DNA of 64,000 bases from Hyaloraphidium curvatum. Lineage: Eukaryota; Monoblepharomycota; Hyaloraphidiomycetes; Hyaloraphidiales; Hyaloraphidiaceae. Positions 34,942 through 39,445 of the stretch are shown piece by piece. The position numbers were made by a program, and so were the translations under genes. Below the pieces are notes generated by a model. It searched no databases. It was not told the origin of the DNA and worked only from the letters and a program-made list of their open reading frames with translations. Positions within the stretch are counted from its first letter, which is position 1; every line of letters starts with the position of its first letter. Where the stretch lies: the NCBI GenBank assembly GCA_025558095.1, contig JAIVFI010000010.1, positions 496,001 to 560,000 of the forward strand. Direction: 5' to 3'.

Positions 34942-37501
34942 ATGAGCGAAACCAGGCCTCCGTCCAAGAATCGCATGTCGATTCAAGATCTCGCACGAAT
35001 CCTTGCCAAGAAGGACCGGATCATCAAGCCGGGAGTGGTGTACCCCGGGACGAGAATCCCGTTCCCTACGATCTGCACCCTAGACTACACGGAGTTCGAC
35101 TCGGTTTTCTGGGGCGGGGAGCGCGTCACCAGAGTGTGCCCCTGCTGCTTGAAGGGATGGCATGCATTGAGTGACCACGGCCTCAAGTCTGACAACAGGG
35201 AATGGTTCTTGGTCAAAGAGTCCCCGGCTTTCACCGCCGAGTTCAACAAACACGCAGCCGGGCTCATCGAGGTATCGAATCGCGGCGAGCTTCGTGTCAC
35301 GGCCGAGGGCAAGGACTCGATCACGATCACGCTCGTCTCGCACACCGTCAAGGACGTGTACATCACGGCACAGATACGTGACCGCCGAAACTCGAAACAC
35401 ATTTTGGCGAGCGCCGATGTGCATTGCATTACCTACTACTCGATCGTGGGCCTCGGGTTTTCGAGCGAGATCAGGCCGGGGGGTGGGCCGCGCGACCGTG
35501 TCGACCACGTCGACCAGAACAAGACGGTTTGACAAGCTGTTTCTCTTGCTACGCCTGAGTGCTGATCTCCCTTTCTCATATGCAGAACAATGCGATCGAA
35601 AACTTGCGTGCACTCGACCGTGGACTGAACGCACTGAACTGCAAGCGCTACGAGTTTCAGAACATGCCCCAGGGTGCAGTTGCGGACCGATCCACGTGGC
35701 CTGTTCAGTTCGTTCCCACCCTCGAGGCGAACGCGGGCTTCGCTATGGAGTGGGGTTCCGTCCGGGAAGCTGGAGATGCCAAGGTGCTCTACTCGCAGTT
35801 CGAGAAGGACAAGCGATACCGCGACACGCTTCTCGCCACCGGTTCGCTTGGGCAGGCCGTGAACCCGAAGACCTTGAACTCGAATCAGGTCTGGATCAAG
35901 GACCCGAAAGGGAAGCGCATCGACGGCATCATCCAGTACCTGCCGAACGCGTCGTGCGAGGAAGGAGAGGAGTACGTGCGCCTAACTCTGGGCGACGTCC
36001 GCGACGCCGTGCGCTCGCGAGCCGATCTGCGATCGAAGGAGCGGGACGACGAGGAAGAGCTGGAGGAATTCAAGGCGTACGAGACGATGCAGACCGCAAC
36101 CGAGCTCCTCTCCGAGGTCTACATGTCTACCTACGGCAACTGCATGACGGTCAGTGATCCCGATTGCCTTTGCTTTCCTCACTCACGGGTTTTGCAGCTG
36201 TCTTCCGACAAGCAACCCATGCAGTGGGGAGGGACGAAGAAGGACGACAGGATCCACCGGCTCCGAGTCAAGGTCAAGTGCGAAGACGGCGAAACGTACA
36301 CCGTCCCCTTCACTGCATCTCGCGGTTTCGCGGTTCTTTTCTCCGAACGCGAGGGCGAGCTTGGGCTTGTGCCGTTCTCCGAGCTCGACGTCGACCACGG
36401 CGACAACAGCCACTCCAACAATGCGGCCGTCAACCTGTTCTGGATGTGGCCGAAAGACAACCGCAGGAAGGAAACCAGTGAGTGATAGAATCGGACGATT
36501 CCGCCGGCCTTAATCGCAGCACGGCGGCAGAGAGGAGGTACGCTGACCGCCGGGCGGCTCTCAAGGGTACGCAGCTCCAAGATCGCCGGTTCAACATTGT
36601 TGCTAACCGGTCCGCAGCGGCGGCTGAGCGCAAGGCGGACAAGATCCTCGGCGTCAAGGCGGATCTGCCCAAGGACGGTGCCGCGGCGCCGGCTCTCCCG
36701 AGTGAAGCCGTTCTTCGTCCGGAGGCTCACCCGAAAGGTGAGCTGGGACCCTCGTTTCTGTCGCGCCTGTTAACCTTTCCTTCTCAGCGGAAACGGCGGG
36801 GACGAGCGTTCCGGATGCTGCCTCCGCCCCTGCCACCTTTCCTCCGACTGAGAACTCTTCCTTCCCCGCGAAGCGGTCCCGACCTCAAGGCCTTGAAGGC
36901 AACGGCAGCAGGAGCAACAGCACAGAGCAGGTTTCGGTGAGCCATCTTTTGGCTGGATCTAGTTTCGTCGTGCCTCACAATCTTTCCGAACAGGAACTCG
37001 GTTCTGCGCAGGGTGCGCACGTAGCATTTATGCCAGAGTCTGGTTTCGGATCTCCTCCGCGCAAGAAGCCTTTCGCAATGCCGACAGCCCTCTCGAGCGC
37101 CCCAGTCATCCTGGCTCCGGCGGCATCGGCTCTCCACCAACGGATGGCACCCTTCAGCGTGCCTTCTACGACTGAAGGAGCTCCTCCCGGGCCCAACGAA
37201 AACACTCCGGTGCCTCCTCAACATGTGGGCTTCCTAGCGCTTTCGTGAACGGTGGAGCTCGCGGGTGAAGCAGGTCTCCTAGACTCCGACTCAACAGGAA
37301 CTGGATGGTTATAGGAGCACGATCTCTCGCCTTCAAAGCGAGATAGTGCAAAAGGCCACAGACATCTTGATCCTCAAGAGCAGGAGGCTTCCCCGCGACC
37401 AGGCCAACATCAAGCGGCAGGAGAAGGTTTTGGACAAGATGCAAAGGGAGCTGGAGCTTGCCGAGAAAGACCTGAGGAAGGCAGAACGCAAGGCCCGGTA
37501 G
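34942..37501 (+). CDS. Protein with two HNH-like modules and a coiled-coil tail
   Basis: From ATG 34942 the first exon has MSIQDLARILAKKDRIIKPG, a cysteine motif RVCPCCLKGWHALSDHG and VHCITYYSIVGLGFS. It ends at 35526; a 59 nt intron (35527-35585) joins it to the next exon in phase 0, completing VDHVDQNKT+NNAIENLRAL, the core of an HNH_3 endonuclease motif (H ... DH ... N ... N). Exon 2 ends with a second module, ELDVDHGDNSHSNNAAVNLF, whose upstream histidine is missing. Further exons give RSTAAERRYADRRA, a Ser/Pro-rich part and a coiled coil (KRQEKVLDKMQRELELAEKD) to the stop at 37501. A TTTGCAG at 34852 might be an acceptor for an upstream exon. The function is not known; a nuclease of mobile origin is the obvious guess. 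Confidence 0.6.
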
Positions 37502-37826
37502 CAGCGATCGTGAGGTGCTTTGACGTGGACTGTCGTTGTCGACTGTTTCTGACTTTCCCAGGCTACCTCGAGCTTTCTCGTGGACATGTTGATACCTTTG
37601 TGATGGATACCTTCGACTTATCTTCGGACTCGTCATTGATACCTTCGACCAGATGTTTACCTTCCGGACTTGCGCATGGGGTAGTGCGTGATGTGTAGTA
37701 ATCGTTGTGGCATGGGGCCAATCGAGGTTGTTTTTCCATTCTCATCTCTTGCCTTGACTACAGTAGCACTCTGGATCTCTTTTTTGGCCTCCTCGTCGTT
37801 GTCTGACCCTTCCTCCCTTCGCAGAC

Positions 37827-38140
37827 TGCGCCGGAACGCATCCGTCCTTGAACCGGGACTACGCGATCCAGTTCTACAAGGTCGAACCCGTCGAAAACTC
37901 CCTCTACTGCCGCCACTCGTGCCCCCGCCGCGACGAGCTCCCCGCCGACGCCTGCGGCCGCCGCCGGCCCCCCAAGCAGGAGCGCAGCGGCTGGGGCGAC
38001 GCCACGGGCCTGTGGCTCTACGCCTTCCCCGGCCTCAGCCTCAACTGCTTCAGCCTGGGGTTCTACACCATCAAGGTCGTCCCGCTGTCGCCGGGGAGGA
38101 CGATGCTGGAGAGAGAGATCTTCGTGGGCGTCTATAATAG
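37827..38140 (+). pseudogene. Fragment of a Rieske-type ring-hydroxylating dioxygenase alpha subunit
   Basis: The frame reads NRDYAIQFYKVEPVENSLYC, then ATGLWLYAFPGLSLNCFSLG, FYTIKVVPLSPGRTMLEREI and FVGVYN, which matches the C-terminal part of the catalytic domain of oxygenases such as choline monooxygenase (WLWLFPN-L-N-Y pattern and V-PL-PGRT). The Rieske cluster and the iron ligands upstream are absent; the sequence before 37827 is unrelated. Similarity ends about 70 bp before the PEX7 stop. It is a decayed fragment, perhaps an insertion or what is left of a lost gene. Confidence 0.6.
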
Positions 38141-38210: not shown

Positions 38211-39445
38211 TCAACGCCTCCGCATCAAGGGCGGCGGTGTAAACACGTGGATGAACTGATCCCAGCTGGCAGTCCCGATCTGCCCCTCCACGTAGAGGTT
38301 AAAGTCCAGGCCGAGCACAAACTCCGTGTGCTGGTCGTGCAAGTAGATCATGGCGTTCTCCTTGCCGGAAATGTCCCACAACCGCATCGTCATGTCGTAC
38401 GACGCCGAGGCGACGAGGTTGCCGTCGTGCGGGCTGCACTTCACCCGCCGCACCGCGTACTCGTGGCCCCGCAGGCACGTAATCTCCCGCTCCGGGAACC
38501 GCAAATCCCACACTTTGATCGTGTGGTCCACCGACGCCGTGACGAGCACGTTCTCGCGGTACTTGTTCCAGTCCAGCGACAGTATCTCGTTGTTGTGCGC
38601 CCGGAACGTCTGCATCGACCGCGGCGCTTTTGCGTCCCAGAGCTTCACGGTGTGGTCGCCGGAGCACGAGGCAAAGATGTCGGGTCCGTAGGGGTTCCAG
38701 ATGGTGGCGTAGATGCAGTGCGTGTGTTCCGCGTAGGTCCGGAGCGAGCGCGGAGCCTGCGGATTCCACTGCGGCGGAGGTTCAGACGGCGCGGAGATTG
38801 CAGCTGGAGCGACAAACCAGCTTGATGGTGTGGTCCCACGATCCGCTGACGAAGGTATCCTTCTTGACCATGTTCCAATTCACGCTGAAAACCTCCCTCG
38901 CGTGCTCATGCCAGTTCTGTATCGGAAAGTCCTGGTCGCCGCCGATGGGAAGTCAGCTACCCGCCGGAACGGCGCGCGTCCAGAACCCCTTCGGGGCCTG
39001 CCAGACGACAACGACGCACCGGCAGCGTCAGGTCCCAGAGCTTGATGCTTCCGTCTCCGCTGCTCGTGACGAGCTGGTTTTCGTGCATCTCCGACCACGC
39101 CACGTCAAAGAGGCCGTCCTGCGTGTCATACCTGTGGAAGACAAACCCATCGAAACCGAAGCCCGAGACAATACGCTGCCTTCACCCACGTCCGCTCCAC
39201 AACCATGCCGCCTCCCGGAGGCATTCCCGGCCGCGGCGGCGGACCACCCGTGGTGTTTAGAACCCAGAGCCTCCCATTGCCGACGATCCCAAAGTTGGCC
39301 GCCGACGCGCAGGCGATCTTGTTCTCGAAAAAAGGCGAGAACGAAAGCTGGACGTGCCAAGTTTGAGTCCACCGGCGGCCGCACTGGGGGCGAGAGGCCC
39401 CACGGAGTAGCCGTTGTAGCCCTCGGTTCGGAACCGCGAGAACAT
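38211..39445 (-). CDS. PEX7: Pex7, peroxisomal PTS2 import receptor
   Basis: Pex7 is a WD40 propeller that binds PTS2 signals in the cytosol and carries cargo to peroxisomes. The start [15 protein letters not shown] (ATG 39445) and, after an intron, [20 protein letters not shown], match the Pex7 N-terminus. WD repeats follow: [100 protein letters not shown] and [20 protein letters not shown]. It ends at 38211 after [12 protein letters not shown]. At least four short introns interrupt 39400-38750. The length (about 350 residues) fits the family. It shares a 177 bp divergent promoter region with UTP10. Confidence 0.9.

Follow-up and report, generated by a model that had tools for sequence, protein, structure and literature searches.

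A predicted spliced gene, located on the forward strand at 34942-37501 of the window (the whole 64,000-nucleotide stretch of DNA that was analysed), is most plausibly a nuclear gene that encodes two complete I-HmuI-type units together with a zinc ribbon, whose ancestry lies among HNH homing endonucleases of phage or virus type, and that settled in the genome before it was duplicated; we assign this reading a probability of about 0.6. The sequence is best read as coding for an HNH endonuclease of the nucleus that has been domesticated or has long been resident, with two predicted active sites. With just one other, much-diverged copy in the genome, the gene gives the impression of a phage- or virus-type nuclease that settled long ago, not of an active mobile element. 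HNH endonucleases of the I-HmuI type are known chiefly from phages and bacteria, and those that have been characterised are nickases.

Gene model and tandem HNH units

The gene consists of seven exons and six introns, all of the latter being GT-AG, and the exons join in a continuous frame to specify 739 amino acids (Table 1). The coordinates and frame given in the earlier note, together with its join of 35526 to 35586, were all reproduced, predicted splicing yielding an uninterrupted frame. Module 1 is, as had been proposed, completed only by splicing: VDHVDQNKT and NNAIENLRAL are brought together at the first join, and reading through unspliced intron 1 leads to a TGA at the second codon. The second module, VDHGDNSHSNNAAVNL, is located in exon 3. 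GC3 periodicity is strong in exons 1-3 (0.79-0.81) and weak in the tail exons 5-6, and the gene model is, as far as can be judged from sequence, well supported. The coiled-coil tail is its weakest part and exons 5-6 are the least certain; the tail encoded by exon 7 is probably helical. The length of intron 2 is divisible by three, and its retention would add 16 residues within unit 2. Among the Pfam matches that were rejected, that of Med21 on the tail (26.3 bits against a cut-off of 37.3) was read as sub-threshold coiled-coil similarity and not as homology, and those of MOSC_N, GSKIP, and Myosin_N were likewise all sub-threshold.

Table 1. Features of the predicted HNH gene, in window positions
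Feature	Position	Strand	Basis or remarks
Exons 1-4	34942-35526, 35586-36149, 36198-36477, 36531-36737	+	GT-AG joins
Exons 5-7	36788-36936, 36994-37224, 37298-37501 (including stop)	+	GT-AG joins
Introns 1-3	35527-35585, 36150-36197, 36478-36530	+	all GT-AG
Introns 4-6	36738-36787, 36937-36993, 37225-37297	+	all GT-AG
Intron 1	35527-35585	+	59 nt, phase 0, within HNH module 1
Intron 2	36150-36197	+	48 nt, without in-frame stop
Zinc-ribbon-like segment, C45-TLD48 ... C66-PC-C69	35074-35148	+	pair alignment, cysteine positions
Unit 1 (beta segment + HNH, aa 106-214)	35257-35642	+	unit HMM, hhalign; split by intron 1
Module 1 catalytic-type residues	D188 H189 35503-35508; N201 35601-35603; N210 35628-35630	+	flanking H161
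Linker (aa 215-383)	35643-36149	+	30% identical to paralogue; end overlaps start of unit 2
Unit 2 (HMM match aa 351-479; exon 3 = aa 384-477)	36198-36477	+	unit HMM, hhalign, AF2
Module 2 catalytic-type residues	D449 H450 36393-36398; N462 36432-36434; N471 36459-36461	+	flanking His replaced by Ser
Tail exons 4-6	36531-37224	+	Ala/Pro/Ser-rich low complexity, basic NLS-like patches; introns 4 and 5
Exon 7	37298-37501	+	charged, coiled-coil-like tail; sequence by eye

The presence of tandem HNH modules was borne out by a search against Pfam HNH_3 (PF13392), which the whole protein matched in two stretches with 34.7 bits (gathering cut-off, 24.8). The paralogue described below also exceeded this cut-off (34.3 bits), and the two modules taken singly scored 24.7 and 20.4 bits, slightly below it. 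A profile of the complete unit, i.e. the beta segment plus the HNH core, was constructed from 15 phage HNH proteins aligned with I-HmuI (114 positions; the first 107 residues of I-HmuI were checked against 1u3e), the phage set having been picked partly by similarity to these modules. This phage-only HMM matched the window protein twice at near full length (aa 106-214 with 25.4 bits, covering HMM positions 14-105, and aa 351-479 with 24.4 bits) and the paralogue also twice at near full length (aa 97-212 and 360-469); the top whole-sequence score in a shuffle control (n = 2000) was 7.6 bits. Among ORFs from all six frames across the window, this HMM gave no further match worth noting. When compared with the phage profile by hhalign, unit 1 gave 97.6% (over 97 columns), unit 2 gave 98.1%, and the linker, used as a negative control, gave 0.1%. 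The HMM and hhalign matches span both whole units, in agreement with the beta-rich segment that the earlier note had placed in front of each HNH core. As for a NUMOD4 segment, hhalign spans the whole unit, yet the N-terminal half alone scored 2-3 bits and Pfam NUMOD4 was unmatched. No C-terminal NUMOD1/HTH was matched by Pfam in the window protein or in the linker of the paralogue, although a divergent domain could escape such a search, and no other known domain was found by Pfam in that linker. The PHROG HNH families 959, 59, 4578, and 99 were matched, and a PDB profile search returned I-HmuI (1u3e) as its sole match (E 0.012), with module 2 aligned to I-HmuI residues 70-103.

A 'CPCC/H' motif, previously described upstream of the modules, is present, but constitutes only the second half of an N-terminal CxxC...CxxC zinc ribbon. 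The paralogue contains the complete form (CNVC-x16-CTAC); the window copy reads CTLD-x17-CPCC, one Cys having been lost at D48. Judged by the cysteine positions, CPCC is half of a putative zinc ribbon that lacks one cysteine in the window copy.

Catalytic-type residues and predicted fold of module 2

The residues D74, H75, N87, and N96, which we take to be the active site of I-HmuI, have equivalents in both modules: D188, H189, N201, and N210 in module 1 and D449, H450, N462, and N471 in module 2. All eight positions are identical between the paralogues, which share 35% identity overall; the probability of this occurring by chance is approximately 2e-4 if the positions are independent. In viral homologues, the equivalents of H75, N87, and N96 are kept in 81/81, 81/81, and 80/81 sequences, respectively. 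Module 2 is without the flanking His of the 'VHRLVA' segment (I-HmuI H56), which is replaced by Ser in the window copy and by Pro in the paralogue, and which is kept in 77 of the 79 aligned viral homologues. Because this loss is common to both paralogues, it is likely to be older than the duplication of the gene; it may have a cost to activity. Module 2 had been called degenerate; the upstream (flanking) His is indeed missing in both paralogues, but the I-HmuI-type catalytic set appears complete, and since the loss left this predicted set untouched, 'degenerate' is too strong a term. Module 2 is, moreover, among the better-conserved parts of the protein, with 39% identity to the paralogue versus 30% in the linker.

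Exon 3 was folded with AF2 together with 15 viral rows, giving strand-strand-strand-helix followed by a strand at 64-67 (DVDH), a strand at 80-83 (LFWM), and a helix at 85-94 (KDNRRK stretch), with a pLDDT of 86-92 in the core and poor confidence in the first 20 residues. The best solved match of this model in Foldseek was I-HmuI (1u3e; prob 1.00, 28% identity), followed by I-PpoI. VIA-align also returned I-HmuI (1.9 A over 50 residues, 34% identity) with a Z of 5.6, a value that would be modest if taken alone, and its lower rows are mostly other HNH/His-Me finger proteins, among them Gme HNH, McrA, Cap5, Cas9 HNH, and I-PpoI. The predicted fold of module 2 is thus a beta-beta-alpha-metal fold of the I-HmuI type, and the structure prediction that had been proposed as a check came out in favour of the HNH assignment for this module. 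AF2 of exon 1 alone yielded no usable model (pLDDT 34).

The second copy, the gene neighbourhood, and relatives

In the assembly of the same genome (31.9 Mb, 55 contigs), in which the window gene lies on contig C10, one other copy was identified on the minus strand at C35:492215-493834. It encodes the same zinc-ribbon/HNH/linker/HNH order, so that a gene family, as had been suspected, exists and is small, with two members in the genome. Introns 1 and 2 occupy identical alignment columns in identical phase in both paralogues, and the third intron of the paralogue is four columns off with its phase unchanged. Intron 2 of the paralogue carries an in-frame stop, unlike that of the window gene. The paralogue stops shortly past unit 2, without the Ala/Pro/Ser-rich and coiled-coil-like tail. 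That the gene exists in just two copies whose introns are conserved argues for long residence, and the HNH gene most likely settled in the fungal lineage before being duplicated into two diverged copies. Upstream of the paralogue, an exon (L011 3684-3950, minus strand) codes for a pair of hydrophobic segments (Kyte-Doolittle means of up to 2.7); it joins in frame to the zinc-ribbon exon of the paralogue and may form part of the N-terminus, but it was left out of the paralogue model because no in-frame start codon was found. Judged by this exon, the paralogue might be membrane-anchored.

Compared with each other by profile-profile alignment, units 1 and 2 show resemblance over just 21 residues, and both match the phage profiles far better than one another. 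The two units fall apart in the unit tree, with weak support, too few columns, and long branches meeting. A common origin of both units had a p-AU of 0.448 in the tree test, and a single origin is therefore not rejected by these sequences in the choice between duplication of unit 1 and fusion.

The neighbouring genes (POP1, HEATR1/Utp10, Tra1, and a DEAD-box helicase) place the window in a eukaryotic genome, which we infer to be fungus-like. Downstream of the HNH gene and convergent with it, a WD40-repeat gene (PEX7-like by eye) lies on the minus strand at 38211-38952. Between these two genes, a 361-bp segment (37770-38130) is a copy, with 98.3% DNA identity, from a gene on another contig (~C37:370929-371290), the frames around the source resembling, by eye, a Rieske-type, choline-monooxygenase-like oxygenase. 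The copied piece apparently takes in part of an intron and resembles a captured gene fragment or a filler insertion of recent date.

No long terminal repeats were found around either copy of the HNH gene. A proposed tie to a nearby Helitron-like gene found no support, as searches of the genome with the Helitron_like_N and PIF1 profiles reported no match on C10, although weak matches can escape such searches; Helitron_like_N matches were located elsewhere (C2:541600, C35:92638, and C8:491059), as were PIF1 matches (C19, C33, C17, and C7). The idea of a domesticated mobile nuclease survives in part, an ex-mobile origin being plausible. Homing endonucleases reside in self-splicing introns or inteins, or form free-standing mobile genes; the HNH gene described here is free-standing and nuclear, with GT-AG introns, and occurs in two diverged copies. 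A resident gene is favoured by the two diverged copies, their shared introns, the lack of long terminal repeats, and the lack of a Helitron or PIF1 match on C10.

Searches for relatives of the whole protein returned nothing past single-module matches in phages and none in plasmids or in bacterial and archaeal genomes; viral contigs, queried with the window protein and with the pair alignment, yielded no relative either. Two units in one ORF were found in 0 of 163 unit-carrying viral or phage ORFs, and no precedent was found in the literature on PF13392 or NUMOD4 together with fungi. I-HmuI and the phage NUMOD4-HNH_3 proteins (PF13392, PHROG 959; 1u3e) are similar to the window protein in that the whole unit is matched twice, the four catalytic-type residues are kept, and the module 2 fold superposes as described above. 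They differ from it in that the window protein has two units per chain, an N-terminal zinc ribbon, a long linker, and a tail, and in that its gene is nuclear and eukaryotic, with spliceosomal introns, no group I intron context seen, and no C-terminal NUMOD1/HTH found. The HNH proteins of jumbo phages (Pseudomonas phage Psa21 and Aeromonas phages PS1 and ACP1) share with module 2 an extra segment before the catalytic DH/NH (GELGLVPFSELDVDH in the window and MHLQHIPFKQLEVNH in Psa21), and that of ACP1 is likewise without the flanking His (Gln). These proteins have a single unit, however, and the tree gives no support for grouping them with module 2. A polinton-like virus in the eukaryotic genome of Symbiodinium encodes a NUMOD4-HNH_3-AP2 protein with an I-HmuI match (PMC12220804); its single HNH is fused to AP2 in a virus-like element, whereas the window protein combines tandem HNH units with a zinc ribbon in no such element. 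The His-Me finger superfamily is also represented in eukaryotic transposons by His-Cys box/KolobokP nucleases of the I-PpoI type (PMC9587614). These share the beta-beta-alpha-metal superfamily and a eukaryotic nuclear setting with the window gene, and I-PpoI appears low in the VIA-align list (Z 2.1), but the sequence profile of the window protein points to I-HmuI, not I-PpoI, and no terminal repeats were found around the gene.

Alternative readings and proposed activity

One or both modules may have lost catalysis, leaving a DNA-binding pseudo-nuclease, e.g. a regulator in which module 2 is an inactive partner. This is unlikely. In its favour, neither paralogue has the flanking His in module 2, and the zinc ribbon of the window copy is short of one Cys; on the other hand, although the paralogues are just 35% identical overall, each has retained the four I-HmuI-type catalytic positions in its two modules, and module 2 is better conserved than the linker. 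That the protein is a selfish homing endonuclease still active today, or belongs to a mobile element, is improbable: the family resemblance to phage homing endonucleases would fit, and the 361-bp copy just downstream could be the trace of a break repaired close to the gene, but only two, diverged copies exist, neither is flanked by long terminal repeats, no Helitron gene was found on C10, and spliceosomal introns are common to both. Least probable is that the predicted gene is a pseudogene in decay or that its exons have been joined wrongly, for which the weak codon periodicity of exons 5-6 would speak, since the periodicity of exons 1-3 is strong, all seven exons are stop-free, and the introns of the paralogue match.

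For the preferred reading, i.e. a long-resident endonuclease with two predicted active sites, we infer DNA binding, cleavage, cooperation of two sites, and nuclear location, as well as the proposed origin. On the analogy of I-HmuI, each unit would lay its beta segment on DNA and set its D-H-N-N active site at the phosphodiester, with the His acting as the general base and Asp and Asn holding one metal. In the HNH mechanism, an adjacent carbonyl, in most cases that of an Asn, positions the general-base His (PMC3943268), and I-HmuI, I-HmuII, I-BasI, and I-PfoP3I are nickases (PMC3428280). One strand would be nicked per unit, so that two units would produce either two nicks or one double-strand break, and targeting of nuclear DNA would be aided by the zinc ribbon and the basic tail. 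The analogy suggests paired nicking by two nickase-type units in one chain. Genome defence, DNA processing, and the persistence of a slow-living selfish endonuclease are candidate cellular roles. A bolder reading, which is tentative and unlikely, is that the protein is a natural single-chain pair of I-HmuI-type nickases, domesticated in a fungal nucleus, where it would nick DNA twice or cut both strands in the service of the host, for example in genome defence or programmed DNA rearrangement; HO, a domesticated endonuclease of yeast, would be comparable in kind.

If the preferred reading is true, the gene would be an unusual case of an I-HmuI-type enzyme adopted by a eukaryotic genome, with two units, and retained after gene duplication, and it would provide a natural test case for the question of whether fusing two nickases into a single chain yields an enzyme that cuts both strands.
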